A stretch of 64,000 nucleotides of DNA from NCBI GenBank assembly GCA_033064195.1, contig JARBJD010000262.1:1-64000 (forward strand), in the 5' to 3' direction. Source of the DNA: Blattamonas nauphoetae. Its lineage: Eukaryota; Preaxostyla; Oxymonadida. The position numbers and the translations under genes are program-made. Of the stretch, positions 3,151 through 61,700 are shown piece by piece. The notes under the pieces are model-generated. The model made no database searches. It saw nothing but the letters and a program-made list of their open reading frames with translations, and was not told the origin of the DNA. Every line of letters begins with the position of its first letter. Within the stretch, counting starts at the first letter, position 1.

Positions 3151-3239
3151 TTTCGAATCTCCTCAGTCTCTATGGGGAGATTTAACTCTCCTGGCTGTGG
3201 AGAGACATGGGATCTCATCAGGTTCGTTGCTCTATCTAG

Positions 3240-31105: not shown

Positions 31106-31338
31106 TTTATTCAAGGTGGAAAAATGAAGTTTGGTCAGGGTCAGTCCAGGATTTCTGATTGTGACCTGCAGTCATGGACAAAAGTCCTCGGCAGAGGGCG
31201 ATGAAGTTTATGAACAGATCATTTCTTTCACTTTTTTTCTAATCACTTCAGTCCACTCTAACTTTGCATTTTCTGAAAAAGAAACTAGGCATGGCTGACC
31301 GGCCAAAAGTGCCGGTCAGTGTCCCCCTTGAATAATTA

Positions 31339-31687
31339 TAGACCCTCCACAAAACCGGTTTTATTTATTAAACCGGCTAAAATCAAAATAAGACGTTTCA
31401 TCCACAATTTCGCCATAATCTCTTAACACGCTACGTAATACACCATTTCAAGAAGAACTAGTGATTTTTCAAAAACCAAGAAGTGACAAAAAGAAGGCAT
31501 TTTCCCCATTCTTTGGACACTTTCTCATGTTTTTTTTGCGATTTTGATGATATTCTCTCTTATCAAACTACCGTTCCCATGTTTCTAAGAGTTATTAAAG
31601 TACAATTCTTGCATTATATTGTGAAAAATGACCTTATAATCAATAAAACCGGTTTTGTATATTTTAGCCGGTTTTGTGGAGGGACTA
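31339..31687. mobile_element. 349-bp MITE, TTA target duplication
   Basis: TIRs TAGACCCTCCACAAAACCGG (left) and TAGTCCCTCCACAAAACCGG (right, complement) with further inner match (CCGGCTAAAAT). TTA flanks at 31336-31338 and 31688-31690. hAT-like copies 2 and 3 lack it at the same site (AATAATTAAAAGGG in copy 2). Tourist-like (PIF/Harbinger-driven) by its TSD; a TA-TSD reading is possible. Confidence 0.8.
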
Positions 31688-31812
31688 TTAAAAGGGTCAG
31701 ATCTCAGCACTTCTATAAATCACGTTCTATAATCCAGAAATCGGCGAGCAAGCAGATATACATATCAAGATTTGCTTGCAGAAGCCGATCGGAAGCCTCC
31801 TTTTTCCGTTTC

Positions 31813-33759
31813 ATGGAGATAACTACAACAATGGGATTGGTGATCTCACACATCACATTCCCCAACATACCACGAATCGATCAGCAAACACAGCCCAAAA
31901 GATCTCCACGATGTTGACGAAGCGAGTGCTTTTGCAATCGTGAAACTTTATGCTCTCGACCAGGTTTCACGTCGTGACTCGTAGTCAAGCACAAGCCAAG
32001 ACTCCGACACAATCTGGCTCTTCGAAAGCTCACCGCACTTACCATCTCTGTCAATATGTCTTGATTTGTACGCACTTTCCTTTCACTTTTTCATCATTTT
32101 ACCTCATTTTCCTTGATCGCCTCTGTGCTTTCAGACTGATGTTGAGAATGAACTGTTCTCCTTTCTGCTTCGTGATCGCTCTTTTGTACATCGAGTGTCT
32201 CCGGACAGACTGTGGCGTGCGCTTCACCTCTCACAACGCCCACACCCTCTTCCTCACAGCGTTTCATCTCCTCTCCTTTTCATCTTCCTTTCAGCACCGT
32301 TGTCTCCACAAAGTGTCTCGACGACCAATTTTTCTTCAACAAGCACTACGCCCACCTCGGAGGCATCGCTCCTCTTTGACGTCTGTCACTTCGAGCAGTT
32401 TTTCCACAGGATCCGCGACACTGTATATCCACCGCTGGCAGGCTCGCAGCTTTCTGCCAAAACGGAGTCATCAGACTTGTCGATCGACACGAAACAACCT
32501 TCCAATCCGGAAAGTGTGTTCATCATTGTTCTATGAAGTCTCTCTGCTTCTCATCATGTTTCCCAACCTCTCCTTTCAGTATCCACTCCGTTTTCTTCCA
32601 TATCGACGCTGTCTTCGCTGACCGTGCACTCCAAAGTGTTTATTCCAGCCAGTCGGCGTCTCAGCGAAGACCGCGAACGCCACAAACTCGAAGCGCAGCG
32701 GGAAAGCTTCTTGATGGCCCAGGAAGACCTCAGTGCCATCCCGCCGACGCCCCCTCACATCACCGCCGAGTCTGGCTCTTTCCCACCCGTTCCACAGACT
32801 AAATCGCTTGATGTTGCACACTATTTCTATCCTCTGCCCCCAACCCTATCATATTCACTATTTCGGTACCGATCGTATGGATCTGTCCAACAGACACTGT
32901 CGTGGGGAAATAACGGTTCACCCCCACCTGTGTCGTCGCCCAATGATCCCGAGGGACTAACAGGCAGCTTCTTCTTCACTGACAAACAGTCATCCCTGCC
33001 GCCCGTCACGCACCTCACAACAACTTCCTTCGCCTTCCTGCTCGCCCATCTTCTGCAGATGAAAGGCATCCAGCCGTCCTCTTCTTTGTTTCCGACCCTT
33101 CCACCGTCGCTTGCTGTCACTCCTCCTGTCGGCACCAGCGTTTCGCCCGTGTTCTTCTCCCCGACACAACCAGCGCCATCGCCAGCCACGCTTGCCAACC
33201 CGACTGCCCCCCGCACCCCAACACAGCTGATCCTGCCGTACTCTCCGCTTCCAAAGCTCGTGCTCAATTGTCTCTCGCCTAATTGATCACATGCGGTGCT
33301 GGAGAAGACACCGGCCCAGCCTGCTCAGCACACCTTGGGACTGCAGCGATTGAACCTCAACAGCCACGTGCTGCTCCCCCTCTCTCTCCTGAAGAGCACA
33401 GGCGAGTCTGTCAGCACTCCCAACCTCACTGATCGCCACCACCAGCTGGACAGGACAGACGCAGCTGACGTGCTTCGGAGCTCGTCGGCTGCTCCCCTCC
33501 TTACGCACCGCACGGACGAGGCGAGTTCTCAGCCAGCCGAGCAGAAGCTTCCCACTACGATCACCGTTCTTGGAACACAGCCAGCCTCCAAACCCCGCTC
33601 GTCTCTTCTGATCCGTCAGTCTCCTCCAGCACCGTCGCCTGGACGGACACAGCTCTCCCCAATACAACTCCTCACCCTCCCGCACTTCACAAAACTCGCT
33701 GTCGATCCCAATCCATCAGCGGACTCGCAGCACGTGCTGGATCGACCACTCTCGGTGGT
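31813..33759 (+). pseudogene. Cyclin gene of hAT-like copy 1, broken
   Basis: Same exon-intron order as the intact cyclin of copy 2, but with a 1-nt loss soon after the start codon and a 56-bp deletion within the cyclin box (junction near 32371-32380). The deletion removes the segment after HLGGIAP and shifts the frame. Both lesions are shared with copy 3. The distal exon (32586-33286) is still open to TGA. The frame then continues past that TGA to 33759, where the Mutator-like element at 33769 interrupts it. Confidence 0.8.
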
Positions 33760-33768
33760 CCTCCCGCA

Positions 33769-35748
33769 GGGAACGACTATATCTCATCAAGCATTCCGTC
33801 TATATCTCATCAAGTTTTGATCAGACCTTTACTATGTCCCTTAATACTTTTTTTTCTACATCAGAGATTCATTGTTTGAGACTAATCACATCCTTATTAT
33901 CTTCATCTCAGTATATTTCTCGTTTTATTCGATTCTTTGATGCAAAGCATTTCCTTCTGTAGTTTCAAACCCAAATCGTTGATCAAGCCATTGATTATTT
34001 TTTTCCTCATCCGAGCTTGATCCAACGAAAATGAAGTGTCAACAGAGCCGAGTCCGTCGGTTCTGCAATCTCGTCCAAAGTGTTCGGTTGGGGGAGAGAA
34101 ACCAGGATCGAGCGTCGCCCCCAATCTGTCCTGCCTTCCCCTTTGTCCACCTCGAACAACCCGTCGTCGTCGCTGCAATCGGACTGGTCAGCGTCGGACG
34201 ATTGGAGAGTGTTCGCGTTCTTCTCTTTCCTTTCTTCTTCCACTGTCCCGTTCCTTCCATCGTGTTCGATTGGCCAACACTCCACAATCTCGCCTTGTCC
34301 TGTTCTTTCTTCTCTCCCTGCTTTTCAGTCCATTCCGCCAGATTCCTCATTTCGTCTGAAGAGAACGAGGAAGTGATGGAGGGAGAAGGAAGAAAGAGTG
34401 ATAACAGAGAGGAATCGAGAGAAGAACGAAGACATGAAGGAAGAACAAGAACGAGAGCATCTCCAAACCAGTCATCAGCTGCTTCGAGAACCACATCATC
34501 GCCTGAGCGTCCTGAATCTCCTTCTCCAATCGCCCAATCACCTGCTCTCCCTCCCTCTCCACAACAACCCTCTCCGCTCTGGCATCTCCATCTCCCAACG
34601 CTGTCTTTCCTCATCCATCACACTCGTCAATGTCACTTCCTTCTTCCGAACCCAAACATTCTCATCCACCAAACGAGATGTCTGCACAGGTTCAACGAGC
34701 TTGTTCTCCTTTACTTCCGCTTTCTCCTCTCCCTCTGCCAATCTTCCTTTCCTTCCCGCCTTCTCCAAGTCTGCGATCCTCGGAGTGCGTGGTCGGGCTG
34801 ATCCAGCACTCCCTCTTCCCGTGTTCATCATTCGTCTCTTCTGAACCTCAACACTTCCCTCCTCCATCAACCCTGTCCCCTTCTTCCGTGTCATTCGCGT
34901 GAACTCCTTTCTTTGCATTGGCTTCACAGATCGTGTGAGGAGATGATGTTGACTACTGTTTCGGATGTTCCGATTCTCTTTCAGCACTGACAGCTCGTCC
35001 TGTCGCTTCTTGTTCTCGTATTGTTTGTTAACGCACCACTCAACTTGATGCGAACGAGGATGGGCGAGCTTTGAAGTTGATCGGGAGAAGAGGGATGGTG
35101 GGAGAAGCTGGGGCAGAAGGGGGATTCTGTCTCCCATCCATTTCTTCACCTTTCTCTTCTGCTTCTTTCTCAACGGCTTCAGTCTTGCCGTCCTCGTTCT
35201 CGTCGTCTTGCTTCGCCCATACCACAAAACTCAACCGACTCTTCTTCCTTCTCAAGTCAAACTCCATCTCCGACTCCACTTTTCGCTTTCTCTCTTCCTC
35301 GTCTTACTTTTCTCTTTCAGAAGCCACGTGCACATCCACAACTTGCTCTGAAAACGCCAGCTTCGCGTGATGCAAGCCTCGTGTTGGGGTGAGCGGCGAA
35401 GTCGGAGGGAAGAGCTTGGCACTGTTCGTCGAACTGTGCGTCTGAGCGAGGGGAGACGACGAGACAAGATGATCCGAAGAGAGATCCTGTGAGTTGTGGA
35501 GAGCGGGATGAAAGAAACAATCAATGGCTTGATCAACGTATCGTGTTTGAAACAACAGAAGTGAGATTATTGCACCAAAAATATCGAAAATTGAGAGAAA
35601 TAGACTGGAATGAAAAGAAGAATGATGTGTTGAGTCGGAAAAAGAGCGACATCAGAAAAGTTGAAAAGACAATTAAGGGACATAATAAAAGTCTGATCAA
35701 AACTTGATGAGATATAGATGGAATGCTTGATGAGATATAGTCGGCCCC
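33769..35748. mobile_element. Mutator-like element 1 (1,980 bp) with captured gene piece
   Basis: Flanked by the 9-bp duplication CCTCCCGCA (33760-33768 and 35749-35757), single in hAT-like copies 2 and 3. Terminal sequence is GGGAACGACTATATC on the left and GGGGCCGACTATATC on the right (complement). The inverted repeats extend about 244 bp (33769-34012; 35506-35748): the outer 55 bp have few mismatches, and matches are patchier inward, including TTGATCAAGCCATTGATT. Inside the TIR, TATATCTCATCAAG occurs twice. Nine-bp TSD plus long TIR is the Mutator (MULE) pattern. No transposase is visible; the interior is host-like coding sequence, as in Pack-MULEs. Confidence 0.82.
34040..35500 (-). pseudogene. 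Captured host gene fragment inside Mutator-like element 1
   Basis: The minus strand is coding-like over most of the interior. One frame runs from about 35500 to 35040 with a single TAA near 35286. It includes SEQVVDVHVASERE and EFDLRRKKSRLSFVVWAKQD, followed by an acidic Lys/Glu-rich stretch. A second frame at 35227-34560 (NKQYENKKRQDELSVLKENR, TPRIADLEKAGRKGRL) continues. A third at about 34570-34400 reads VIGRLEKEIQDAQAMMWFSK, coiled-coil-like. A last open segment near 34200 is Asp/Ser-rich (SSDADQSDCSDDDGLFEV). The frames change without obvious splice sites. It looks like a transduplicated coiled-coil protein gene of unknown family. Confidence 0.5.
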
Positions 35749-36253
35749 CCTCCCGCAGGCCGAGCGCACCCCACCCACAAAGCAGACCACTCCCAGTTCA
35801 CCGTTCGTTCCCCCCCTTCCTCCCCTCGCTGCCGCAGAAGCACCCGACGTCCTGAAGGCACCACCCCTCCTGATCACGCCGTCCCCAACACCCTTCACAC
35901 CACTCGCCCCTCGCCCTGTCCTGCACCCCTCTCGTCCATCCATCGCCCACCAAACAAGAGTCTAATGCTCTCCCTCCCCCGTCAGAGTACTCCTCATTCG
36001 TGTGCTCCTCCACTAAAGTCTGCCATCGATTTGGTGGGCACGAAGTGGGGATGAAAGGCGTGATGACAGCAATGAGTAGTGGCGTCGTTCCCACTTCATT
36101 CAAAAAGTGTTTCAATCCTCTTCAAAACTCTGTGATTCAAAAAAAGCCGAAGTGAGAAAACAAGAGTGTTAACTTAACTCGTGGGAGAATACGAAAAATG
36201 TCAAAGAGCAACCCATAGTTGCCTTTTGCACTTATACAGCTCGACTAGTTCTG

Positions 36254-36452
36254 AAATGCATTTTAATTTTTCAGAAATAGATTGTAATTATTCAGAAATG
36301 AACATAATTGTTCAGAAATGTACTTTAATTTTTCAGAAATGAACATAATTGTTCAGAAATGAACAGAGATTGTTCAGAAATGAACAGTGATTCTTCCCAA
36401 ATGAACAGTGATTTTTCTGAAATGAATACTAATTTTTCATAAATGAAGGATC
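36254..36452 (+). repeat. Left subterminal iterons of the Tc1/mariner element
   Basis: About eight to nine imperfect 20-21-bp units with core TTCAGAAATGAACATAATTG. Probable transposase-binding sites. Confidence 0.8.
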
Positions 36453-36576
36453 AAAATGAGTTGTCCAGATGCAATTTAGAAGCTATATTCAGGCTTCTGA
36501 AAAATGAAAAAAGGTTGATCGGACCCTTAAATTGTCTAAAAAAAGTACGCGTAGCCATTTCCAATTGCGACATCAG

Positions 36577-38136
36577 ATGATAAACGGAGAAGATTTTTCT
36601 GGAAAATCATCGCGAAATTTCATGGAACGCTCCTTTTCTCTCATCGATGATGAATCTGAGACTGACGAGTCTCAAAACTCATCGATCACCGAAAGACAAA
36701 TACAATTCCAATCTCTCAACGAATCGGATGGATGGTTCTTTGGTGATGAAGTTGTTGATTGTGAATCTGGGATGGAAAGTCAGCAGGATGGGCTTCTCAC
36801 AGGCGGATTCAGTCAGGATTTTATTCGAACAAGTCTCAAACGATCGAAAGATGAACTTCGAAGACTCTTGCCAGAAAGAATTGAAGCAGTTGATAGTGCA
36901 AGCCCACCTGAACCTCTTCTTCCACAAGATCCTCATGAGTTTGTTGAACTACCAGCTCCTCAGAAGATGAAACGTGGTCGTCCAACTTCTCGTCCTGCCC
37001 CAAAGCCCCGACGATCATACACCATTCTCACGCCTCGTGAACGCGAATTGGTCCTCGATGAAGTGAAGGAAGGGAAGAAGTACGATTTGATTGTCGAAAA
37101 GTGGAACATCTCGAAAGGAACAATCAACAACATCGCATCTGGAAAACCTGCTCCCATGCCTCGTGGGGGAGCAGTCTATCGAAAAATCACTCCAGAAATT
37201 TCACGATCAATGAATGATGCAATTCTTCAAAACCCACTCTTGAAGGGAGGAGAACTCAAAACTCTCGTCGAGGAGAATCATGGAACATCGGTTGCAGTGT
37301 CGACAATCAATGCTCACCTAACTTCACCAAAAATGGTGGAACACGGGTGTACAAAGTTCACTGTGAAGAAAGTCGAACTGCTCCAACACGAACGCAATTC
37401 GGAGGAAACAAAGGACGCGAGACTCGACTATCTTCAGCGATACGCAACAACATTCTCTCAAGGTGGATTTGCTGTCTACATCGACGAAACTTCCTTCAAC
37501 AAGACCTGCTTCCAAAATCAAGGTCGTGCTCCAATCGGTCAGCGTTGCCTTCAACGAGTTCGTCGATTGCAAACGGAAAATCTCACTGCAACCACAGCGA
37601 TCTCTGAAGCGTGGGGTGTTGTTCATGTGACGTGGGTTCAAGGAACTGTGTCTGCTCTTGAATTCCAACATTTCCTCCTCTCACTTTTTGAGTCCCTTCA
37701 AAGAAGAACGAATGAAAGCTGCACACTGATTATGGACAATGTTGGCTTGCACAAGACGGATGAGGTGAAAGAGCTCATCAGATCGAAAAATTACACAACT
37801 CTGTTCACTCCACCAAATTCATGTGAGTTGAATCCGATCGAGTACGTCTTTGGCATGTGGAAAGGTGGGAGTTCGATTCCTTCTCATGTCAGAACAGAGG
37901 ATCAACTGCGGATTCATCTTTCGGAATCTCTCAGTGCAATTCCTCATCGGAAGATATCCGCGGCCATCAGATTTGTGTCTCTCAGACTTCATCCAATTGT
38001 CGCTCGCCGAGGTGATTTGGCTCTCAATCGAACACAAGAACAGTTCAACCGCGATTCGAACGGCCCACATGCTCCAAGTCCGCAAGCAATCATGCCACCA
38101 GACCACGGACCACGAGTGGAAGAACCTGAAGAATAA
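36577..38136 (+). CDS. IS630/Tc1/mariner transposase, DD34E
   Basis: The reading frame is intact from ATG 36577 to TAA, 519 residues, longer than the usual 340-350 because of an acidic N-terminal extension. An AT-hook-like KRGRPTSRP (about 36970) precedes a helix-turn-helix region (LTPRERELVLDEVKEGKKYD to WNISKGTINNIASGK). The catalytic domain shows D in FAVYIDETSFN, D in TLIMDNVGLHK and E in CELNPIEYVFGMWK, with 34 residues between the second D and the E. No stop or frame change was seen, so the element could be recently active. It catalyses cut-and-paste transposition into TA sites. The frame is also open 15 codons upstream but without ATG. Confidence 0.93.
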   Translation: MINGEDFSGKSSRNFMERSFSLIDDESETDESQNSSITERQIQFQSLNESDGWFFGDEVVDCESGMESQQDGLLTGGFSQDFIRTSLKRSKDELRRLLPERIEAVDSASPPEPLLPQDPHEFVELPAPQKMKRGRPTSRPAPKPRRSYTILTPRERELVLDEVKEGKKYDLIVEKWNISKGTINNIASGKPAPMPRGGAVYRKITPEISRSMNDAILQNPLLKGGELKTLVEENHGTSVAVSTINAHLTSPKMVEHGCTKFTVKKVELLQHERNSEETKDARLDYLQRYATTFSQGGFAVYIDETSFNKTCFQNQGRAPIGQRCLQRVRRLQTENLTATTAISEAWGVVHVTWVQGTVSALEFQHFLLSLFESLQRRTNESCTLIMDNVGLHKTDEVKELIRSKNYTTLFTPPNSCELNPIEYVFGMWKGGSSIPSHVRTEDQLRIHLSESLSAIPHRKISAAIRFVSLRLHPIVARRGDLALNRTQEQFNRDSNGPHAPSPQAIMPPDHGPRVEEPEE

Positions 38137-38234
38137 ACTGCTTCATCAATAATTCACCACACAAGAGTGTTTCCCTTCGTTCTGTCAGTCTTTTCTAAAA
38201 CGAGTGGTCTCAAAAATAAATCCGAAAAAGAGCC

Positions 38235-38430
38235 GTTCATTTCTGAACAATCACTGTTCATTTCCGAATAATCATTGTTCATTTCAGAAAAATCACTGTT
38301 CATTTACGAATAATTCATGTTCATTTCTGAAAAATTAAAATTCATTTCTGAACAATCATGTTCATTTCTGAACAATCAAAACACATTTCTGAACAATTAT
38401 GTTCATTTCTGAATAATTAAAATACAATTC
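38235..38430 (-). repeat. Right subterminal iterons of the Tc1/mariner element
   Basis: About nine imperfect units with core GTTCATTTCTGAACAATC, the inverted counterpart of the left set. Confidence 0.8.
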
Positions 38431-39248
38431 AGAACTAGTCGAGCTGTAACTGGTAAAAATGTCCAATAATAAGTTAGCAAGAGATGAATAGAAGTGAAAA
38501 TTATACATTTGTTGCATATCCGAAGACAGATCACGAATACTCACGGTATCGATGCGAAATGCAGTTTTTGATGAATCCACTTCGGAGAAATGGTAACTCT
38601 GGATTATGGGTTCCCGAATGTCTCCGGTCAGTGACCGTCAGTACTTTTCGGCGAAAACTGACCGGTCAGTGCCGGTCAGTCATGCCTAAAAGAAACCCAA
38701 TAGAGTCTGTTGAAGTGAAAAAATCAAAGAATGACTGATGTGAAATTGAGAGACAAAACTATGGCGAACAAACTTCTGTCTCTCCCCTTCAGCGATGACG
38801 AGATCACTGTAAAATGAAGAGCGTTGACAGCTGACACGATTCGATGTTTGGTTTGAAAAACAGAATTATCAGGATGAGTGAAAGAGTTTGATGAAGTGAG
38901 AGTGTGAAGTGAAAAGGAATGAGAGAGAAAACAATCTGAGATTTTCGTCATTGCCATTTGATTTGGATCAGAACGAGAAAGAGCAGACCGGTTTCGAGTC
39001 TCGAAACAAACTTACCAGGGTCCATCTCATCATCGCTGAAGAGGAGAGACAGAAGTTTGTTCGCCATAGTTTTGTCTCTCAATTTCACATCAGTCATTCT
39101 TTGATTTTTTCACTTCAACAGACTCTATTGGGTTTCTTTTTCAGAAAATGCAAAGTTAGAGTGGACTGAAGTGATTAGAAAAAAAGTGAAAGAAATGATC
39201 TGTTCATAAACTTCATCGCCCTCTGCCGAGGACTTTTGTCCATGACTG

Positions 39249-40156: not shown

Positions 40157-40583
40157 GGCCATCTCAATTTAAAGTTGGTTTTCTCGAGTACCGTTGGTAT
40201 TCTAAGCTGCAGTTGGTTTTCTGAACGACCGTTGGTATTCTAAGCTGCAGTTGGTTTTCTGAACGACCGTTGGTTTTCTGAATGACCGTTGGAAATCTGC
40301 AAAAACAGTTGGTTTTTTTAAACCATATCAGTGTGGATGTTTGATCAAAAAAAAATGGACAAATAGACGAGTTGGTAGATTCAGAGACTTCCGCTGTTGG
40401 GACCCAGGTTCGAATCCCGGGATCGTCAACTTTTTTCTTCAATGGATTTTTCTGACATGATCATACACATTTTTGTGAAATTATAGCAGTATTCATGATC
40501 GGATGAGTAATGTTCGACAATTGGATTGAATTTGCCTTTTTTTGAATCGGATCATCCCACTCTCTCTTAAACTCACCTCTTCT
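40157..40583 (+). repeat. Left TIR of Mutator-like element 2 (outer part)
   Basis: Continues at 43494-43572 beyond the inserted hAT-like copy 2. It contains short tandem units of the type GTTGGTTTTCTGAACGACC (40178-40295) and a tRNA-like pol III segment. Confidence 0.9.
40358..40428 (+). other. tRNA-like sequence with pol III A and B boxes
   Basis: A-box-like TAGACGAGTTGG (40364-40375), perfect B box GGTTCGAATCC and a T6 run just downstream (40431-40436). D-arm, anticodon stem and acceptor stem pair poorly, so it is not called a functional tRNA. A pol III-transcribed relic inside the TIR is likely. Confidence 0.5.
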
Positions 40584-43485
40584 TAGGCATGGCTGACCGG
40601 CACTGACCGGTCAGTTTTCATCGAAAAGTACTGACGGTCACTGACCGGAGAAATGAGGGAACCCATAATCCAGAGTTACCATTTCTCCGAAGTGGATTCA
40701 TCGAAAACTGCATTTCGCATCGATACCGTGAGTATTCGTGATCTGTCTTCGGATATACAACAAATGTATAATTTTCACTTCTATTCATCTCTTGCTAACT
40801 TATTCTTGGACATTTTTACCAGTTATAAGTACAAAAGGCAATTATGGGTTGCTCTTTGACATTTTTTCGTATTCTCCAAGTTAAGTTAACACTCTTGTTT
40901 TCTCACTTCGGCTTTTTTTGAATCACAGAGTTTTGAAGAGGATTGAAACACTTTATGAATGAAGTGGGAACGACGCCACTACTCATTGCTGTCATCACTT
41001 CTTTCCTCCCCACTTCGTGCCCACCAAATCGATGGCAGACTTTAGTGGAGGAGCACACGAATGAGGAGTACTCTGACGGGGGAGGGAGAGCATTCGACTC
41101 TTGTTTGGTGGGCGATGGATGGACGAGAGGGGTGTAGGACAGGGCGAGGGGCGAGTGGTGTGAAGGGTGTTGGGGACGGCGTGGTCAGGAGGGGTGGTGC
41201 CTTCAGGACGTCGGGTGCTTCTGCGGCAGCGAGGGGAGGAAGGGGGAGAACGAACGGTGAATTGGGAGTGGTCTGCTTTGTGGGTGGGGTGCGCTCGGCC
41301 TGCGGGAGGACCACCGAGAGTGGTCGATCCAGCACGTGCTGCGAGTCCGCTGATGGATTGGGATCGACAGCGAGTTTTGTGAAGTGCGGGAGGGTGAGGA
41401 GTTATGTTGGGGAGGGCTGTGTCCGTCCAGGCGACCGTGCTGGAGGAGATTGACGGATCAGAAGAGACAAGCGGGGTTTGGAGGCTGGCTGTGTTCCAAG
41501 AACGGTGATCGTAGTGGGAAGCTTCTGCTCGGCTGGCTGAGAACTCGCCCCGTCCGTGCAGTGCGTAGGAGGGGAGCAGCCGACGAGCTCCGAAGCACGT
41601 CAGCTGCGTCTGTCCTGTCCAGCTGGGGGTGGCGATCAGTGAGGTTGGGAGTGCTGACAGACTCGCCTGTGCTCTTCAGGAGAGAGGGGGAGCAGCGCGT
41701 GGCTGTTGAGGTTCAATCGCTGCAGTCCCAAGGTGTGCTGAGCAGGCTGGGCCGGTGTCTTCTCCAGCACCGCATCTGATCAATTAGGCGAGAGACAATT
41801 GAGCACGAGCTTTGGAAGCGGAGAGTACGGCAGGATCAGCTGTGTTGGGGTGCGGGGGGCAGTCGGGTTGGCAAGCGTGGCTGGCGATGGCGCTGGTTGT
41901 GTCGGGGAGAAGAACACGGGCGAAACGCTGGTGCCGACAGGAGGAGTGACAGCAAGCGACGGTGGAAGGGTCGGAAACAAAGAAGAGGACGGCTGGATGC
42001 CTTTCATCTGCAGAAGATGGGCGAGCGGGAAGGCGAAGGAAGTTGTTGTGAGGTGCGTCACGGGCGGCAGGGATGACTGTTTGTCAGTGAAGAAGAAGCT
42101 GCCTGTTAGTCCCTCGGGATCATTGGGCGACGACGCAGGTGGGGGTGAACCGTTATTTCCCCACGACAGTGTCTGTTGGACAGATCCATACGATCGGTAC
42201 CGAAATAGTGAATATGATAGGGTTTGGGGCAGAGGATAGAAATAGTGTGCAACATCAAGCGATTTAGTCTGTGGAACGGGCGGGAAAGAGCCAGACTCGG
42301 CGGTGATGTGAGGGGGCGTCGGCGGGATGGCACTGAGGTCTTCCTGGGCCATCAAGAAGCTTTCCCGCTGCGCTTCGAGTTTGTGGCGTTCGCGGTCTTC
42401 GCTGAGACGCCGACTGGCTGGAATAAACACTTTGGAGTGCACGGTCAGCGAAGACAGCGTCGATATGGAAGAAAACGGAGTGGATACTGAAAGGAGAGGT
42501 TGGGAAACATGATGAGAAGCAGAGAGACTTCATAGAACAATGATGAACACACTTTCCAGATTGGAAGGTTGTTTCGTGTCGATCGACAAGTCTGATGACT
42601 CCGTTTTGGCAGAAAGCTGCGAGCCTGCCAGCGGTGGATCTACAGTGTCGCGGATCCTGTGGAAAAACTGCTCGAAGTGACAGACGTCAAAGGGGAGCGA
42701 GTACACAAGGAGCGACAGGAGGGTACGCTCCATGTCGTTGAAGATAGTCGGAGCGATGCCTCCGAGGTGGGCGTAGTGCTTGTTGAAGAAAAATTGGTCG
42801 TCGAGATACTTTGTGGAGACAACGGTGCTGAAGGGAAGATGAAAAGGAGAGGAGATGAAACGCTGTGAGGAAGAGGGTGTGGGCGTTGTGAGAGGTGAAG
42901 CGCACGCCACAGTCTGTCCGGAGACACTCGATGTACAAAAGAGCGATCACGAAGCAGAAAGGAGAACAGTTCATTCTCAACATCAGTCTGAAAGCACAGA
43001 GGCGATCAAGGAAAATGAGGTAAAATGATGAAAAAGTGAAAGGAAAGTGCGTACAAATCAAGACATATTGACAGAGATGGTAAGTGCGGTGAGCTTTCGA
43101 AGAGCCAGATTGTGTCGGAGTCTTGGCTTGTGCTTGACTACGAGTCACGACGTGAAACCTGGTCGAGAGCATAAAGTTTCACGATTGCAAAAGCACTCGC
43201 TCCGTCAACATCGTGGAGATCTTTTGGGCTGTGTTTGCTGATCGATTCGTGGTATGTTGGTGAATGTGATGTGTGAGATCAACAATCCCATTGTTGTAGG
43301 ATATCTCCATGATACGGAAAAAGGAGGCTTCCGATCGGCTTCTGCAAGCAAATCTTGATATGTATATCCGCTTGCTCGCCGATTTCTGGATTATAGAAAT
43401 TGATTTATAGAAGAGCTGAGATCTGACCCTTTTAATTATTCCAGGGTGACACTGACCGGCACTTTTGGCCGGTCAGCCATGCCTA
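40584..43485 (-). mobile_element. hAT-like cyclin-carrying element, copy 2 (complete)
   Basis: 2,902 bp; both ends TAGGCATGGCTGACCGGC; 8-bp duplication CCTCTTCT (40576-40583, 43486-43493). The empty site with a single CCTCTTCT is seen in the opposite TIR arm (about 49190-49200). Strand is given for the cyclin gene. This copy has the undeleted cyclin box. It lies in the left TIR of Mutator-like element 2, so it inserted after that element formed. Confidence 0.95.
41780..43310 (-). CDS. Pho80-type cyclin, transposon-borne, five exons
   Basis: Model: complement of 41780-42486, 42553-42827, 42862-42987, 43055-43137, 43197-43310. Introns are 66, 34, 67 and 59 nt, all GT-AG; the sum is 435 codons (434 residues). 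The cyclin box (about residues 45-190) reads PFCFVIALLYIECLRT, VRFTSHNAHTLFLTATVVST, KYLDDQFFFNKHYAHLGGI and NDMERTLLSLLVYSLPF, matching the Pho80/PCL helix pattern. The C-terminal 250 residues are Pro/Ser-rich. Such cyclins activate CDKs of the Pho85/CDK5 kind. It is the only one of three copies with an open cyclin box. An in-frame extension beyond the TGA (through a possible 45-nt intron) is open in copy 3 but frameshifted here by a 2-bp loss near 41690. Whether it is expressed is unknown. Confidence 0.82.
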
Positions 43486-43572
43486 CCTCTTCTCTCCAAT
43501 CAACTTATTGAGACTCTTCGATAGTTCAGGATGCACCATACAACAGCAATCAACACCTGGATGCGAAGCGCT

Positions 43573-49111: not shown

Positions 49112-49617
49112 AGCGCTTCGCATCCAGGTGTTGATTGCTGTTGTATGGTGCATCCTGAACTATCGAAGAGTCTCAATAAGTTGATTGGAGAGAAGAGGTG
49201 AGTTTAAGAGAGAGTGGGATGATCCGATTCAAAAAAAGGCAAATTCAATCCAATTGTCGAACATTACTCATCCGATCATGAATACTGCTATAATTTCACA
49301 AAAATGTGTATGATCATGTCAGAAAAATCCATTGAAGAAAAAAGTTGACGATCCCGGGATTCGAACCTGGGTCCCAACAGCGGAAGTCTCTGAATCTACC
49401 AACTCGTCTATTTGTCCATTTTTTTTTGATCAAACATCCACACTGATATGGTTTAAACAAACCAACTTTTTTTGCAGATTTCCAACGGTCATTCAGAAAA
49501 CCAACGGTCGTTCAGAAAACCAACTGCAGCTTAGAATACCAACGGTCGTTCAGAAAACCAACTGCAGCTTAGAATACCAACGGTACTCGAGAAAACCAAC
49601 TTTAAATTGAGATGGCC
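49112..49617 (-). repeat. Right TIR of Mutator-like element 2
   Basis: 506 bp, uninterrupted inverted copy of 40157-40583 plus 43494-43572. It preserves the empty target site of hAT-like copy 2. Confidence 0.95.
49346..49416 (-). other. tRNA-like sequence, second copy
   Basis: Inverted copy of 40358-40428 in the right TIR, identical as far as I can see, with A box, B box and T-run terminator on the minus strand. Confidence 0.5.
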
Positions 49618-52069: not shown

Positions 52070-54918
52070 TAGGCATGGCTGACCGGCACTGACCGGTCAG
52101 TTTTCATCGAAAAGTACTGACGGTCACTGACCGGAGAAATTAGGGAACCCATATCCAGAGTTACCATTTCTCCGAAGTGGATTCATCGAAAACAGCATTT
52201 CGCATCGATAACGTGAGTATTCGTGATCTGTCTTCGGATATGCAACTAATGTATAATTTTCACTTCTATTCATCTCTTGCTAACTTATTCTTGGATATTT
52301 TTACCAGGTATAAGTACAAAAGGCAATTTTGGGTTGCTCTTTGACATTTTTCGTCTTCAACCACAAGTTAAGTTAACACTCTTGTTTTCTCACTTCGGCT
52401 TTTTTTGAATCACAGAGTTTTGAAGAGGATTGAAACACTTTATGAATGAAGTGGGAACGACGCCACTACTCATTGCTGTCATCACTTCTTTCCTCCCCAC
52501 TTCGTGCCCACCAAATCGATGGCAGACTTTAGTGGAGGAGCACACGAATGAGGAGTACTCTGACGGGGGAGGGAGAGCATTAGACTCTTGTTTGGTGGGC
52601 GATGGATGGACGAGAGGGGTGCAGGACAGGGCGAGGGGCGAGTGGTGTGAAGGGTGTTGGGGACGGCGTGATCAGGAGGGGTGGTGCCTTCAGGACGTCG
52701 GGTGCTTCTGCGGCAGCGAGGGGAGGAAGGGGGGGAACGAACGGTGAACTGGGAGTGGTCTGCTTTGTGGGTGGGGTGCGCTCGGCCTGCGGGAGGACCA
52801 CCGAGAGTGGTCGATCCAGCACGTGCTGCGAGTCCGCTGATGGATTGGGATCGACAGCGAGTTTTGTGAAGTGCGGGAGGGTGAGGAGTTGTATTGGGGA
52901 GAGCTTTGTCCGTCCAGGCGACGGTGCTGGAGGAGACTGACGGATCAGAAGAGACGAGCGGGGTTTGGAGGCTGGCTGTGTTCCAAGAACGGTGATCGTA
53001 GTGGGAAGCTTCTGCTCGGCTGGCTGAGAACTCGCCTCGTCCGTGCGGTGCGTAAGGAGGGGAGCAGCCGACGAGCTCCGAAGCACGTCAGCTGCGTCTG
53101 TCCTGTCTAGCTGGGGGTGGCGATCAGTGAGGTTGGGAGTGCTGACAGACTCGCCTGTGCTCTTCAGGAGAGAGAAGGGGAGCAGCACGTGGCTGTTGAG
53201 GTTCAATCGCTGCAGTCCCAAGGTGTGCTGAGCAGGCTGGGCCGGTGTCTTCTCCAGCACCGCATGTGATCAATTAGGCGAGAGACAATTGAGCACGAGC
53301 TTTGGAAGCGGAGAGTACGGCAGGATCAGCTGTGTTGGGGTGCGGGGGGCAGTCGGGTTGGCAAGCGTGGCTGGCGATGGCGCTGGTTGTGTCGGGGAGA
53401 AGAACACGGGCGAAACGCTGGTGCCGACAGGAGGAGTGACAGCAAGCGACGGTGGAAGGGTCGGAAACAAAGAAGAGGACGGCTGGATGCCTTTCATCTG
53501 CAGAAGATGGGCGAGCAGGAAGGCGAAGGAAGTTGTTGTGAGGTGCGTGACGGGCGGCAGGGATGACTGTTTGTCAGTGAAGAAGAAGCTGCCTGTTAGT
53601 CCCTCGGGATCATTGGACGACGACACAGGTGGGGGTGAACCGCTATTTCCCCACGACAGTGTCTGTTGGACAGATCCATACGATCGGTACCGAAATAGTG
53701 AATATGATAGGGTTGGGGGCAGAGGATAGAAATAGTGTGCAACATCAAGCGATTTAGTCTGTGGAACGGGCGGGAAAGAGCCAGACCCGGCGGTGATGTG
53801 AGGGGGCGTCGGCGGGATGGCACTGAGGTCTTCCTGGGCCATCAAGAAGCTTTCCCGCTGCGCTTCGAGTTTGTGGCGTTCGCGGTCTTCGCTGAGACGC
53901 CGACTGGCTGGAATAAACACTTTGGAGTGCACGGTCAGCGAAGACAGCGTCGATATGGAAGAAAACGGAGTGGATACTGAAAGGAGAGGTTGGGAAACAT
54001 GATGAGAAGCAGAGAGACTTCATAGAACAATGATGAACACACTTTCCGGATTGGAAGGTTGTTTCGTGTCGATCGACAAGTCTGATGACTCCGTTTTGGC
54101 AGAAAGCTGCGAGCCTGCCAGCGGTGGATATACAGTGTCGCGGATCCTGTGGAAAAACTGCTCGAAGTGACAGACGTCAAAGAGGAGCGATGCCTCCGAG
54201 GTGGGCGTAGTGCTTGTTGAAGAAAAATTGGTCGTCGAGACACTTTGTGGAGACAACGGTGCTGAAAGGAAGATGAAAAGGAGAGGAGATGAAACGCTGT
54301 GAGGAAGAGGGTGTGGGCGTTGTGAGAGGTGAAGCGCACGCCACAGTCTGTCCGGAGACACTCGATGTACAAAAGAGCGATCACGAAGCAGAAAGGAGAA
54401 CAGTTCATTCTCAACATCAGTCTGAAAGCACAGAGGCGATCAAGGAAAATGAGGTAAAATGATGAAAAAGTGAAAGGAAAGTGCGTACAAATCAAGACAT
54501 ATTGACAGAGATGGTAAGTGCGGTGAGCTTTCGAAGAGCCAGATTGTGTCGGAGTCTTGGCTTGTGCTTGACTACGAGTCACGACGTGAAACCTGGTCGA
54601 GAGCATAAAGTTTCACGATTGCAAAAGCACTCGCTTCGTCAACATCGTGGAGATCTTTTGGGCTGTGTTTGTTGATCGATTCGTGGTATGTTGGTGAATG
54701 TGATGTGAGAGATCAATAATCCCATTGTTGTAGTTATCTCCATGATACGGAAAAAGGAGGCTTCCGATCGGCTTCTGCAAGCAAATCTTGATATGTATAT
54801 CTGCTTGCTCGCAGAATTCTGGATTATAGAAAGTGATTTAAAGAAGTGCTGAGATCTGACCCTTTCATTTATTCAAGGGTGACACTGACCGGCACTTTTG
54901 GCCGGTCAGCCATGCCTA
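52070..54918 (-). mobile_element. hAT-like cyclin-carrying element, copy 3
   Basis: 2,849 bp; both ends TAGGCATGGCTGACCGGC; 8-bp duplication TCTTGATC (52062-52069, 54919-54926). Nearly identical to copy 2 except for a 56-bp deletion in the cyclin box and scattered changes. No insertions inside; no transposase. Confidence 0.95.
52580..54743 (-). pseudogene. Cyclin gene of hAT-like copy 3, broken
   Basis: Collinear with the intact copy 2 gene. It shares with copy 1 the 1-nt loss just after the start (near 54733) and the 56-bp cyclin-box deletion (junction near 54183-54190, within GGAGCGA). The distal exon 53270-53970 is open. Past the TGA at 53270-53272 the same frame continues to 52580, ending IAHQTRV, so a longer C-terminus may have existed. 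Confidence 0.8.
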
Positions 54919-54926
54919 TCTTGATC

Positions 54927-55749
54927 AACCCGAAACCCTCAGCCACTTTTCATTCATCATCTATGATTATTTTCCGAAAGGGAGATAAAAAAAACAACCC
55001 ATAACTTTCATTACCCGAAATACCAGACGAAACTGTCTCAAGTTCAAAATTTTTAAAAAAAATGGAGAAAAATGCTTGGAAAGAAATGAAGAAAGTCCCT
55101 CAAACTGGGAATACACCCGAATCATGACAACTGTCCATGAAAACGAAAATGAGGCTTGTCACATTGATACCTGAACCAATCCACACCATTCAATTCCACC
55201 TGACGAACAGGTGAAGACGAAAAGAGTGGAGATCTGGACAGCGAGAGGGACTGTCCGTGATATGCGTGGGGGAGACGTGAGAAGTGATAAGGTGATGTCT
55301 GAGATGGGATGATATGAATCGATCATCAAGCATTGCTAAACAACCGTCGTGAAGTGAGAATATAGAAAAGGTGTGTTGAGCTGATAAATCAGATGTTTCG
55401 TTGTGAGAAACATGCCTCAAGAGGAGAATCAAGACAGGCTGGATGAGTGTTCGGAGTGGAAGATGTTGTTTCAATGATTGGATAAAGTGGGACAACGTTG
55501 ACATCAATCTGACGATCGGATGCCAACTCTCCTTTTCCGAACACTCGACAGCTGTGACGTGGCAGCACATCCGAGGGATGGCGTAGTTGTGTGTGTGAAA
55601 GTGTGCGAGTGCGTGCATTTGAGAGAGAAAATGAAGAGGAGAGGAAACAAAGATGTCGGAGTTGTGAGTTGATCTCTCATTGTGCGAATGATTCCAACGA
55701 ATCAAGTGTCGATGTGTGATGATGACGTGAACAATCAATGAAGTGATGA
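54927..55749. other. Spacer and duplicated receptor 3' flank
   Basis: From about 55070 the sequence is the inverted counterpart of 17619-18615, more diverged than the coding region. 54927-55069 is unique AT-rich sequence. No gene called. Confidence 0.5.
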
Positions 55750-58700
55750 TCAACCAGTTGGGTTGTGACCATTCTGAGGAGGGATAATTTGAGGTGAGAT
55801 CTCCTGCTTTTCGTCAATCGTGTCGAGCGTCTTCCCCGACGTCTTCAGAGTCTGTTCAATCTCTTTCAGAGTCGGACGACTGTCCGCTTCCACAGAGAGG
55901 CACTTCTCAATCAGCTCCTTCTTCCATTCCACAATGTTCGTCATCACAAGCCCTGTTCCTGTCGCCAGCTGGCGTTGAGCATTCACTCCATCGATTTCCC
56001 GAAGCGGAACTTGACCAGTCTCCATTTCCCACAAGATCAGGCCAAGACTAAAAACTGACGCCTTCTCGTGGTTCACGTTCACAAACGACTGCCCCGCCAC
56101 AACCTCCGGCGACGCCCATCGCACTCCCGAAGACTGCCTCGACTGGCCCGACTCTAAAAAACGGTTCGCTGTCGTGTTTCCCTGCTCTGTCGGCTCGCCG
56201 GACTTCCCCAGTTCTCGCATTTGCAGCAGAACTCCATCTTTCTCGTCAAGCAGGATCCAGTTCGGCGCCAGCCGGAGGAACATCTCTCGTCGAGCCTTGT
56301 CCGTCACCGAGTTCTGCAATCCCTGAACAATCAGCACAGCTGTCGTCTTCGCATCCAGCTTCTTTCCCTGATCCTTCCCATGCAGACGAGAGTAGAGTGT
56401 GTGAGACTTGCATGTCACCACACTCTCGAACTCTCCCTCACACCTCACTGCCTCCACCATCATCCCAACACCACCTTCCTCGTCGTCTGGGATTCGAATT
56501 CCGTCGGCAATCTCGTTGTTCGCTGTGTCGATGTGTTTCAGTCCGAATCGACCGTCGCGATCCTCAATAAGTCCGAGAATGTTGTCTGTCGAAGTATTCA
56601 TCTGTCCTGGCCAAGTTTGCTGGTCTTCGACTTTCATCTCATCCAAGAATACATCCATTTCCGCCATCATCGGTTTCTTTTCGTCTTTCCCTTTCTCCTT
56701 CTTACAACGTCGCACAAGCACAATGATGATAATCACAGCCAGTAACATCAGAAGCACTCCTCCCACAATCCCCAAAATCCACGGCATGTTTTTCGACGCG
56801 AGCGACTTTCTGATCGCTCCGTCTGATTCCCGAATCACCATCCACTCCGAACTCCGACCAGACGGACCGAACAGCAGCCGACCACGCCATTCCATTCCAG
56901 TGTCCAGCTTCCACAAATCCACTTTCTGGTTGAGCGTCACCACGATCGACTCCTCTTCCCATTTCGACGTCTTCATTTCAGACAGGTCCAGTTCCATCAT
57001 CATTCCTGTCTCTTTCCCATTTTTCAAATCCCACTCAAACACTCCCAGACGCAGACCACACGCAATCAGAACTCTTCCCACAATGCACACGTCCATCGTC
57101 TTGTTCTTCACGTGGAACACACTCCAGCTCTTGTTCGTCATCGCTGCCACAAACAGCGGCGAGTCCACATTCGCTCCAGCTCCACTCAACACACAACTGT
57201 CTGTGCTGATCCACTGCGATCCAACTTCTTCCACATTCGACATCCCCACACTTGGAATCGTGATCCTTCCATCACCTTCGCATCGGATGTTCCGATTCGC
57301 CGAAGGGAACCGAGAGCTCCCAGCGCTGTTGTGTTCGAAGAGGCAGCTGTGCAGCGTCACATTGCTGTTCGACACAAACAGGCCTCCCTGACGCTGCTCG
57401 TAGAACTGAACATTGTCCATCCGAACCGTCTCGCAATCCTCCAGTCCGATCAGCCCCGTCGACCACGAGCAGAGCGATTCTGAGTTTCGTTCTACTTCGG
57501 GAAGCACTCCATCGAACTGACACGAACTCATTTTCACTGACTTCGTGTTCGACACAGAGAGGAGCACATCACCAACGCAGTCGGAGAGAGACACACCAGA
57601 CACAACAAGAGCATCCGAAGATGCGACAACGAACGGGGTGATTGAGAAGTGGGCATTGGCGAGTTCCAGATTCGAGAGAGTGAACTTTCCAGCAGCGATG
57701 GAGACGAGTGGGCGAGGAAGATCACCAGTCCATTCAAACGAGCACGAAGTAATGTTCACATGACCACAGTTCGACACAATCAGAGGAAGATCGGATTGCT
57801 CTCCAAGAGCGAAGAGCACAGAAGTGACTCCAATTTTGTGCGGCGACGCTGCGTTCTTGAGTAAAAGTTGACCACCTGCAATGACAGTGATCCGTTCAAT
57901 TTCGCTCTCACTGACCACTTCCACGTTGTTCTTTCCAAACACTGCTGCATCAGACAAAACTGTCCCAGACACGACAACCAGCTTCAGAGTCTCGTGTCCC
58001 TCCAAATGAGACACACCCTGTTCCAGACTTCGACAACGCCACACGTACTGTCCACACCCTGCCGCATCTCGACCTTCGGAGCCAACAAAGATCGTCGCTC
58101 CTCGATACCCAATCAGATAGTACAGCAGAGTCACCTCTTTGTACGACGATGACGGTTCTTCAGCCAGGTCCACACCGAACAACAGCGAGTCGTCACTTGG
58201 CGACGATAGCGACGATTCCGACACTTCCCAGTTCGACAGAACAATCAGATCTTCGAATGACCATCCCGTCAGATGCATCCAGTCTCCTTTTCCTCCGCTT
58301 CCACACGAACACGAAGCAAAGGAGGCACGAATCGTCAGCGACGATCCCAAAACTTTCTCAGAAGCTACGACAGCCAACCCTCCTCCAACCCCACTCGACG
58401 AGCACCCAGAGAACGACACATTCAGCAAGCTCAACTCTCCTCCAACATTCACTCGGCAATGCATCGCTCCTCCATCGCCATCCGAACTGCAATCAACGAA
58501 TTCAACTGCATCATTCTCGTCTCCAATCACCACACACTCGTTCTCATTCACGGTCAGCGTCAGAGCTCGCTTTTCCATTCCATTCGAAGATGATTTCGCA
58601 CGAAGTTCGGCGAATCGCGTGTCAACAATCTTCATCGATCCACTCGACGCAATAAACGAGTCAGTCAAGCTTCCATCCGAGAACGAGCAGGAAATCATTG

Positions 58701-61700
58701 TGACCGACCCTCCAATCTGGTCGACGATGGTTGGAAGATTTCTCGAGAATGCGTCTGTGACTGAATCGAGCACGAGGTTGGCTGTTCCTCCCACTGTCAG
58801 AGGAGGTGGGGATGAAACGATCGATGCGATAGAGTCTTTGATCGTCGTCGTTCCGCCTGTCATGGCAATCAGAGAAACAGTGCGAGGAGACAATGAGTGA
58901 GTGATGGTCAGCGACGAATCGATCGACAGCTCACCAGACACCACTCGCAACAGATGGTGAGACGCAGATGGATTCACAATCGTCGTGTCGCCTTCAAAGG
59001 AAACTGACCCTCCATCGACTGAGCACAGCGTCAGCGGAATCGTTCTGCCCGATTCACCAATCGAACACGACGAGAATCTGAGTGATCCAGATCCAACCTC
59101 AATCAGCGGTGACGTTCGATCAGCCGTCAATTCCTTGGACACAATGTGAAGAGACACAAGTGTCAGCTTCGAGCCACTGTCCGACGAGATCTTCAACTGA
59201 CCATTTTCAGTGAGCGAGAGGATGTGAGATGTCGACGACTGAGTGAGTGTCCATTCCGAAGCTGTCGACTCAAACAATCCCGACACATCCATCGAGGAAT
59301 CAAGTGTCACAGACTTCGAATCTTTCATCGCGGCCATCGAACGACGAAGACTTGAGCACGGAAGCGATGACAAACCACAATTCACATGATCCACTCCAGA
59401 GCTGTGAACATGAACCGATCCCGATGTTGTCACGTGAGGATGCCAGAAGTACAGGAGACTCCCCTGAACCTCCGACGATTCGAATCCCACAAATGAATTC
59501 TTTTCAGAATCATCGAACAGAGCTGTTTGGGCGGCAGGAGCGAGAGACACGAATGGTTCTGATGTCGCTAACTTTGATAGCGACGAGCTCGTCACAAACA
59601 TGTTCGACCCTTCCAACGCCGAGTTTCCATCTGTCGTTGAGAACAACAACGAATCAAACGAGATCTGACCCAATTCGGTCATTCCAGTCAGATCCAAGTT
59701 CAGTGCTCCTCCCTTCCCACTCGATGAGCATTTCGAGAAACTCCCTCCCAATCCAATCGACCCACTTCCCACAACTGAAACACTCATGCACCCTCCATCT
59801 CCTCCAGAGCACGACGAGAACGACGAACTCCCATCAATCGAGAGCGACTGTCCAGCTCCAACTGTCCCACAAACAATCGATCCTGCACAGGACGACTTGA
59901 AACCAACAAATGAGCTGTTTCTGATCCAAAGCGAGCCAGACGATGTCAGCGTGAAAAACGACTCAGAGAACTCAGCTTCCACTGTCGTGAATGCAATCGA
60001 CTGAGTCACAACCTTTCCTCCCTTCAACCAGAATCGTCCGTTCTGTCCTCGACTGAACGCGACACCCGCCGATCGAGTCAAGATCGCTTCTTTCTCAGAC
60101 ACAAACGAAATCAATTCATCAAATCTCAGGTCTGACGCAATCGTCAGGGTCGTCGTCGACACACCACAGTTCATCCTCCCAATCCCTTTTCCCAACGACG
60201 AACAACCCACTCCGAAGTGACCACAATCATCAAAGTCTGCATGCTGAGAACCTCTCACTTGGATTTCTGACTCGATGTCTCGAAGATACACCAGAAGCGA
60301 ACACGCAATGTTGTGTTTCGTGTCTTCACTCCAAAGCTGCGTCGCTGCAGATGACTCTAATGTTCCTTCCCAAACCGAGCGAGAAACGATCCCTCCAAGA
60401 TCCCTCCCCACAATCAGAACATCAGGCGAGAGTGTTCCAGTCGAATGTGTGAATGCGAGTGACTTGAACAGCAGCGGTGTGGTGCTTGTGCAAGCAGAGA
60501 GATCCAGATGAACCGAATGTGCCCCCACTGACGACCAACAGTCTTCGAATCTCACATCCGACAACTTCAGTGTCTGCGTCGACCCAACACTTCCACACAC
60601 AATCGACCCATTCGAGGAGCACGTGAATGAAGAGAAGGAGCACGACGTGATCGTCAGCGATCCTGACGATGACAGAGAGATCAGAGAAAGGGACGAGGTC
60701 AGCGCTGTTGAGAAGTGAAGATTGGTCAGAGCGAGTGAGTTTCCTGATGCTGTGATCAATCCACCATCTTCCACCTTCACGTTCTGTTTGGTCTCTCCTT
60801 TCCCACTCAGCTCCAGCAACAAGAGCGTCGTCTTCAGTTCAAAGTCGAGAATGGTTGAACCGGAGATCGTCACAATGTTCGTCGAGTGTGTCGAGAGGTG
60901 CGTCAGACTGTGTTCCAGTGTCCCACAAGGAAGATCAGAGCGTCCACATCCAACTACATCTTGTCCATCAGAGGCGAGAGAGATGTCAGGATGAGAGAAA
61001 GCAACGAGATACACCAGCAGCGTGGCTGAGCTGAATGGAGTTGACGAGAGTGCGAGATCTTCTCCCCAGAACAGGCTTTCTGTCTCTCCGAGTGACGTTG
61101 GATGACCAGACCAGTTCGCAGGAGCGATCAGAGAGGCGAGGCCAGACCCAGAAACGAACACACATCCACCCTTTCCAGAGCCAGAGGAGCACGTTTCGAA
61201 CGATGTCACTCTCACAACAAGTTGAGAGGAAGCGACGCCACTTCCACAGCTCACAAACAGCACTCCCCCACTTCCTCCAGCTGAGCAGTGGCTGAACGTC
61301 GTGGAAGTCATCGACAACGAATCTGTAGATTTCGTCAGCGAGGCCATCAGCACTCCTCCATTTCCTGATGTTTTCGACACATTTCCCACTGTGCTCTCAG
61401 ACACTGCAAGCACTCCTCCAGTCTGCTCAATCACACTCGACGATGGCAGTGTCACCTTCGAAGAGAAGTCGAGTGCATCTCCCGAGAAAGAGACAGAACC
61501 AGAGGAGAGCGAGATGAGGGCGGATGTTCGTGCTGTTGATGGATGAGTGAGAGATGTGGCTGAACCGATCGACAGACTTCCAGAAGAGACAACGAAGAGT
61601 GGCGATGAGGACGACACAAGTTTCAGAGTGTTGGCTCCAGAGAGTGTCAGAATCCCTCCAACAACTGATCCGAGTGTGATTGGCATTGGAGTGATTCCGT

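Follow-up and report, generated by a model that had tools for sequence, protein, structure and literature searches.

A putative gene-capturing family of inverted-repeat transposons with a Pho80-type cyclin gene among its cargo in the oxymonad Blattamonas nauphoetae

Three elements with the same ends in the window

Blattamonas nauphoetae is a gut protist that belongs to the oxymonads, a lineage without mitochondria. The genome that we searched comprises 88,311,006 bases in 837 contigs, and the window analyzed here is a stretch of 64,000 nucleotides within contig C182 (JARBJD010000262.1, positions 1 to 64,000). According to the genome paper, the assembly has 88,537,989 bp and 879 contigs (PMC10703272).

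The window contains three copies of an element with 18-bp terminal inverted repeats (TIRs), 8-bp target site duplications (TSDs) and a cyclin gene or its remnant (Table 1). Identical TIRs had been predicted for all three copies; this holds for copies 2 and 3, but in copy 1 only 17 of the 18 bases are alike, with a single-base difference at one end. The TSDs are perfect and mutually different in all three copies (AAAGAAAC, CCTCTTCT and TCTTGATC), as the original prediction had stated. The window contains the end sequence TAGGCATGG five times, whereas 0.13 occurrences would be expected. When the two flanks of copy 2 were joined, they matched positions 49617-49112 at 98%, and this site is an unoccupied copy of a repeat. 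About 110 bp of the A-end (at 86-95%) and at least 68 bp of the B-end (at 75-91%) are also common to elements with other interiors.

Table 1. Features of the cyclin elements in the window, and contigs with annotated proteins that match the cyclin.
Feature	Position	Strand	Remarks
Copy 1	31286..38688	+	7403 bp; cyclin remnant on + strand; TSD AAAGAAAC on both sides
Copy 2	40584..43485	-	2902 bp; cyclin on - strand; identical TIRs; TSD CCTCTTCT
Copy 2 TSD, left	40576..40583
Copy 2 A-end	40584..40693	+	18-bp TIR and subterminal DNA
Exon 4 of element cyclin	41780..42486	-	up to the TGA common to 23 aligned copies
Exon 3 of element cyclin (cyclin box)	42553..42827	-	P0001-type model on copy 2
Exon 2 of element cyclin	42862..42987	-	P0001-type model on copy 2
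Exon 1 of element cyclin	43159..43172	-	NCBI-type model (P0001), MLSTR
Copy 2 B-end	43418..43485	-	18-bp TIR and subterminal DNA
Copy 2 TSD, right	43486..43493
Paralogous empty target site for copy 2	49112..49617	-	single TSD copy
Copy 3	52070..54918	-	2849 bp; identical TIRs; TSD TCTTGATC
Cyclin-matching hypothetical proteins	contigs C1, C17, C81, C136, C173, C235		NCBI annotation
Cyclin-matching hypothetical proteins	contigs C376, C390, C416, C479, C667, C836		NCBI annotation

Copy 1 is interrupted by three insertions, at about 31339-31686, 33771-35748 and 36237-38446. The last of these contains an intact 542-aa DDE_3 ORF (36508-38136) and has TA at its borders, as in Tc1/mariner elements; the second measures about 1.98 kb, its inverted ends span about 85 bp, and a sequence of about 11 bp (CCTCCCGCAGG) is directly duplicated. 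Elsewhere in the window, a DDE_Tnp_4 transposase domain lies in a 404-aa ORF at 1948-3162. Positions 9989-17629 and 55739-63379 are inverted copies, 94% complementary, of a gene for a giant repetitive protein with a C-terminal kinase-like domain, and the first copy has an ORF of 2701 aa.

Gene model of the element cyclin

The original prediction divided the cyclin of copy 2 into five exons and 435 codons. The best model instead has four exons, 373 codons and three introns, and follows P0001, the NCBI protein model of one copy (373 aa), which starts with MLSTR in a short first exon; we checked it on copy 2. All three introns are of the GT-AG type, and this part of the prediction stands. The prediction also gave the same cyclin to all three copies, and a cyclin is indeed present in each of them, but the 373-codon ORF is intact only in copy 2: that of copy 3 is disrupted by a 56-bp gap and gives a product of 74 aa, and copy 1 lacks about the same stretch and has its three insertions in addition.

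We also compared 23 aligned copies from the whole genome. The GT-AG splice sites are conserved in all 23, and exactly this four-exon ORF is kept in 13 and missing from 10, in a count where one-base indels, which affect many young copies and may be Nanopore assembly errors, were scored as breaks. Three copies have a nonsense change at codon 293 in common. A 133-aa piece of the product, spliced by eye with approximate boundaries, matched the cyclin family PF08613 (E = 5.6e-12, 46.7 bits, cut-off 21), a match that is also precomputed at NCBI for the protein of a sister copy.

Copies of the cyclin element in the genome

We searched the genome with the TIR pattern, allowing up to two mismatches, and found 338 and 356 ends, compared with 0 and 2 for the reversed control. 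A sister TIR, TAGGCTTGTCTGACCGGC, gave 206 and 205 ends at up to one mismatch, partly at the same places as the main TIR, and elements bounded by it recur in sizes near 1729, 2320 and 3190 bp.

A DNA search with the cyclin region identified 26 places, namely 25 element copies and one distant match in a host gene (77%). Of the 25 element copies, 22 have both ends and perfect 8-bp TSDs: the three in the window, 18 of 20 further stretches, and L057. In the other three (L037, L050 and L056), the second TIR is absent from the stretch examined, which could reflect insertion, truncation or rearrangement. A further remnant of the cyclin element, on contig C152 (L079), lacks the searched cyclin region and stands outside the count of 25. 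One cyclin element is nested within a sister element (the outer element of L048) that has its own TSD. L048 and L057 share the same TSD and the same nest; therefore, they are probably a single insertion copied together with its surroundings.

The alignment of 23 copies, which leaves out copy 1 and L056, showed a mean pairwise identity of 98.9%, and the copies are 97.6-100% identical to the consensus. They fall into a young group (99.7-100% to the consensus) and an older one (97.6-98.5%).

One could regard the copies as an ordinary dispersed family of host genes whose flanking repeats are coincidental, given that they are annotated as host genes and that L048 and L057, with their common TSD and nest, make up at least one pair of segmental duplicates. 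However, the ends are precise, elements are nested, the target site of copy 2 exists in an empty form, and the 26 TSDs compared, from cyclin and other elements, are perfect and each different. Because the TSDs and the empty site refute it, we give this reading a negligible probability. Together with the number of copies and the host gene described below, they bear out the original prediction that a family of TIR transposons has spread a multi-intron cyclin gene as DNA.

A host cyclin gene related to the cargo

The distant match (L055, contig C428) is a complete host gene, BLNAU_23485, that encodes 728 aa and is annotated as Cyclin. No TIR was found at up to five mismatches within 7 kb of it, so that a candidate donor outside TIRs, which the original prediction had proposed to look for, does exist. 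Its DNA is 72% identical to that of the element over 1.6 kb, and the homology begins near the start codon of the host gene and ends near residue 640 of 728. A 300-aa piece of the host protein matched PF08613 with 56.9 bits (cut-off 21), and its best match among solved structures was PHO80 (PDB 2pk9, E = 7.3e-9). Both the cargo and the host gene belong to the same sequence family as the PHO80-type cyclins, but in the element form the cyclin box is missing its beginning and the C-terminal tail is absent.

The match to the 149 positions of PF08613 covers 38-149 in the host protein but only 66-149 in the element. Contrary to the predicted intact cyclin box, the N-terminal exon has been lost, and compared with the host protein the element product is missing both the N-terminal portion of the box (the first helix) and the long C-terminal tail. 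In the frame of the host gene, element exon 1 contains no in-frame ATG; codon 23 reads TAG in 22 of the 23 aligned copies, and codon 420 reads TGA in all 23.

The introns of the element and the host gene lie at matching places, with GT-AG ends. In the NCBI models, the third intron has the same donor and a different acceptor in the host gene, and the first intron starts earlier in the element, after the short exon. As the original prediction had reasoned from the introns, this correspondence indicates that the cyclin was captured as DNA and not via mRNA. Judging from these sequences, BLNAU_23485 is either the donor of the element cyclin or a sister of the donor. Given the large divergence between the element and the host gene, the actual donor may be a paralog that has since been lost.

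Other cargo between the same ends

We also examined eight elements that have the same ends and no cyclin (the outer element of L048, L058, L059, L060 and L063-L066). They have seven different interiors, L059 and L066 being alike; with the cyclin included, there are eight different interiors among the nine elements compared. The outer element of L048, L060 and L063 have up to about 370 bp in common beside one end. TSDs are perfect in the outer element of L048, L059, L063, L064 and L066. The TSD of L058 agrees at seven of eight bases, and that of L065 matches only at an offset of three bases. The flanks of L060 are unmatched, with no TSD, and L060 may not be one single element.

L064 carries a piece of SufD (PF01458, E = 5.4e-23) and a piece of SufS (PF00266, E = 2.5e-29) in different frames. 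Positions 579-1720 of L064 are 97% identical over 1142 bp to a host segment (C833:161584-162727), where the host reading frame runs beyond both of the breakpoints at which L064 diverges. The SufD-SufS segment thus looks like a young capture with both breakpoints inside a host gene, and so for one cargo, a piece of this Fe-S assembly gene, both breakpoints are known. L065 contains a kelch piece (PF24681, E = 5.5e-15); it has its ends and an inner stretch of 133 bp in common with the cyclin element, as if the interior of one scaffold had been exchanged. A piece of L063 shows 46% identity over 72 aa (E = 4e-8) to the 2701-aa protein of the window and represents a surface-protein fragment. In the scanned frames of the outer element of L048, L058, L059, L060 and L066, no Pfam family scored above the cut-off. 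Host genes have been matched for two cargos, the cyclin (C428) and SufD-SufS (C833).

The differing interiors of elements with the same ends show that the cargo is interchangeable and that the cyclin lineage is one successful case. The family had been described as one that carries a cyclin; a cyclin lineage has indeed spread, but its sister elements hold other pieces of host genes. The presence of the cyclin in 25 copies would also be expected if it were the core gene of an autonomous element. We consider this very improbable, given that other genes occur within elements of the same ends and that the room outside the cyclin is too small for a transposase.

Transposase and superfamily

The cyclin element has no transposase frame, and its cargo occupies most of the 2.9 kb. 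No transposase domain was found in the eight other elements, as judged from their ORF lists and from Pfam scans of selected frames, and in the part of the genome examined there was no element with these ends that holds both a transposase and the cyclin. These elements may still contain a transposase that Pfam does not match, for instance within the 3-kb insert carried by L059.

Next, we compared transposase domains with the places of the TIRs, by eye and for the first 100 of the 694 places of the main TIR, the first 100 of the 411 places of the sister TIR, and two further sets of 70 and 60 places in full. The hAT domain PF05699 has 61 hits in the genome, and among the TIR places listed none of these hits lies inside a TIR pair or beside a lone end pointing at the hit; in 12 of the 61 downstream flanks, which were read, there was no inward end at up to six mismatches. 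In L070 and L071, hAT genes lie close to sister TIRs, but these TIRs face in the direction opposite to the hAT gene, which makes the two neighbors only. None of 100 hits of the MULE domain PF10551 lies inside a listed TIR pair; two are situated inward of a lone end at a distance of 5-6 kb, about as many as chance would give by a rough estimate. PF04937 gave a single hit below threshold (C42:121789), outside the nearby listed pair of ends at C42:116096-118416.

A 661-aa transposase, whose ORFs (L061, L062 and L058) have no Pfam match and for which no homologue was found, was also a candidate for the autonomous partner. However, it is part of another transposon, which has the ends GGGTGAGAGTCTG and is nested in L058 and in the remnant on C152. 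We rejected it because its transposon has other ends and is nested as a foreign element. Among the matches listed, the transposase has 103 in the genome, so that this transposon is abundant, and none of the 103 falls inside the listed TIR intervals except for the nested foreign element. In L062, an apparent 8-bp TSD, ATCTGATG, was read by eye.

It is known that hAT elements prefer the TSD nTnnnnAn and that 8-bp TSDs are also made by superfamilies other than hAT. Here, T at position 2 and A at position 7 occur together in 4 of the 26 TSDs, and either of them in 16 of the 26. The TIR of the cyclin element is one that we take to be hAT-like in appearance. Given the 8-bp TSD, hAT, to which the original prediction had likened the elements, is the likeliest superfamily, and the family may be taken as a candidate member of it.

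Constraint and drift of the cyclin

We then calculated dN/dS (NG86) between the element consensus and the host gene, leaving out codons with stops or gaps. The overall value was 0.31 over 614 codons; by region it was 0.34 in exon 1, 0.11 in exon 2, 0.21 in exon 3, 0.25 from exon 4 to the stop, and 0.43 behind the stop. With the paralog P0017 as the outgroup, 22 of the 414 residues compared occurred only in the element and 21 only in the host gene (p = 1); the corresponding numbers for exon 1 were 4 and 0. From the low dN/dS and the equal protein rates, both cyclins were under constraint during most of their divergence.

Changes among the copies present another picture, counted in 22 copies with L057 left out. 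In codons 24-419, nonsynonymous, synonymous and nonsense changes number 31, 6 and 2, compared with 26.7, 11.2 and 1.1 expected from random placement, in which synonymous changes were this few in 4.5% of the draws. Behind the stop, there were 30, 6 and 4 such changes, compared with 26.2, 12.6 and 1.2, and synonymous changes were this few in 1.4%. Because the synonymous deficit is equal behind the stop, we do not read it as positive selection. Comparison with random placement gave no sign of purifying selection since amplification among these 22 copies, and the changes look neutral. This comes close to the dN/dS near 1 between copies that the original prediction had named as evidence against itself.

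These data also bear on the function of the cyclin. The original prediction had proposed that the mobile cyclin could regulate a CDK through its dosage or as a decoy; on this reading, the element cyclin would be expressed and the element would profit from it. The 373-codon ORF of 13 aligned copies and the splice sites of all 23 would fit this proposal, as would the dN/dS of 0.11-0.25 in exons 2-4, the near-equal numbers of unique residues against the outgroup, and the annotation of copies as genes by a pipeline with RNA-seq intron hints. However, the changes among copies resemble the neutral expectation and are alike behind the stop, the N-terminal helix and the C-terminal tail have been lost, and the sister cargos look like plain gene fragments. 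We therefore hold the proposal to be improbable. A variant in which an N-terminally truncated element cyclin is made and perturbs a host CDK, with selection on the whole family and not on each copy, seems to us quite improbable as well; if it were true, a transposon family would carry its own modulator of the cell cycle or of phosphate signaling and profit from it.

The equal rates raise a further question, since they do not look like those of a long-dead passenger. The low dN/dS and these rates would be accounted for if the cyclin had long been functional inside the element, with only the latest bursts being neutral. However, late capture of a host paralog, followed by its loss at its own locus, would give the same pattern, and 22 of the 23 aligned copies already have a disrupted first exon. 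Long function inside the element is therefore unlikely in our judgment, and we favor a constraint that predates capture, with two host genes and late capture of one of them.

Comparison with known systems

Taken as a whole, the evidence makes it highly probable that these elements form a non-autonomous, gene-capturing (Pack-type) family of cut-and-paste TIR transposons that has repeatedly taken up pieces of host genes. The family has 18-bp TIRs, 8-bp TSDs and conserved ends that span about 110 bp on one side and 68 bp on the other; it captures host gene DNA including introns and multiplies it, and one lineage holds most of a Pho80-type cyclin gene, the sister of BLNAU_23485. This lineage was amplified recently in at least two waves, presumably moved by a transposase supplied in trans, probably of hAT type. 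Aberrant repair may account for the capture, or neighboring elements may have moved jointly, and the cargo would be mostly a passenger that drifts after amplification.

In plants, Pack-TYPE elements are known as Pack-MULE, Pack-CACTA and Pack-hAT (PMC8903248). The family described here shares with them TIRs and fixed TSDs of the size of a superfamily, the absence of a transposase of its own in our searches, host donors, many copies and a cargo of various host gene pieces. It differs from the plant elements in that the host is an oxymonad, the assignment to a superfamily is tentative, and one cargo comprises most of a multi-exon gene whose ORF is kept in many copies (PMC8903248). A fungal example is Pyrenophora tritici-repentis, where a hAT element has been reported to have transduplicated a gene resembling histone H3 (PMC3538342). 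That case likewise involves a TIR element of about 2-6 kb with an extra gene and near-identical copies, about 10 to 25 in number. Its long form combines the hAT transposase and the cargo, and a short form lacks most of the transposase, whereas we found no transposase and several cargos (PMC3538342). Ectocarpus, a brown alga, has giant non-autonomous families that include accessory genes and that the authors likened to Pack-MULEs (PMC12477816). Like the present family, these are DNA transposons of the non-autonomous kind that contain genes other than a transposase, in a host that is neither a plant nor a fungus; the passage that describes them names no host donors, whereas two host genes are matched here (PMC12477816).

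In these sources, the documented cases in which TIR transposons captured genes come mainly from plants, plus one from a fungus (PMC8903248, PMC3538342). The literature on gene-capturing TIR elements in oxymonads and other protists, chiefly open-access papers, contained no report of this family. The oxymonad case thus appears to be unreported, although the kind itself is known from plants and a fungus. It places gene capture by TIR transposons in an oxymonad, where two of the cargos have a matching host gene. Because the family is young, it allows one to trace how a multi-intron gene is captured, amplified and then decays.

Transposon cargo in the gene annotation

In the NCBI annotation, copies of the cyclin element are entered as genes. 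For gene prediction in B. nauphoetae, masking was restricted to repeats of known families, and RNA-seq intron hints were used; the words "transposon" and "transposable" are absent from the main text of the genome paper (PMC10703272). At least 12 NCBI "hypothetical" proteins match the cyclin, on contigs bearing copies of the element (Table 1). This suggests that the published gene counts of B. nauphoetae include transposon cargo. Among the models of these proteins that were inspected, the exons differ from one model to another.
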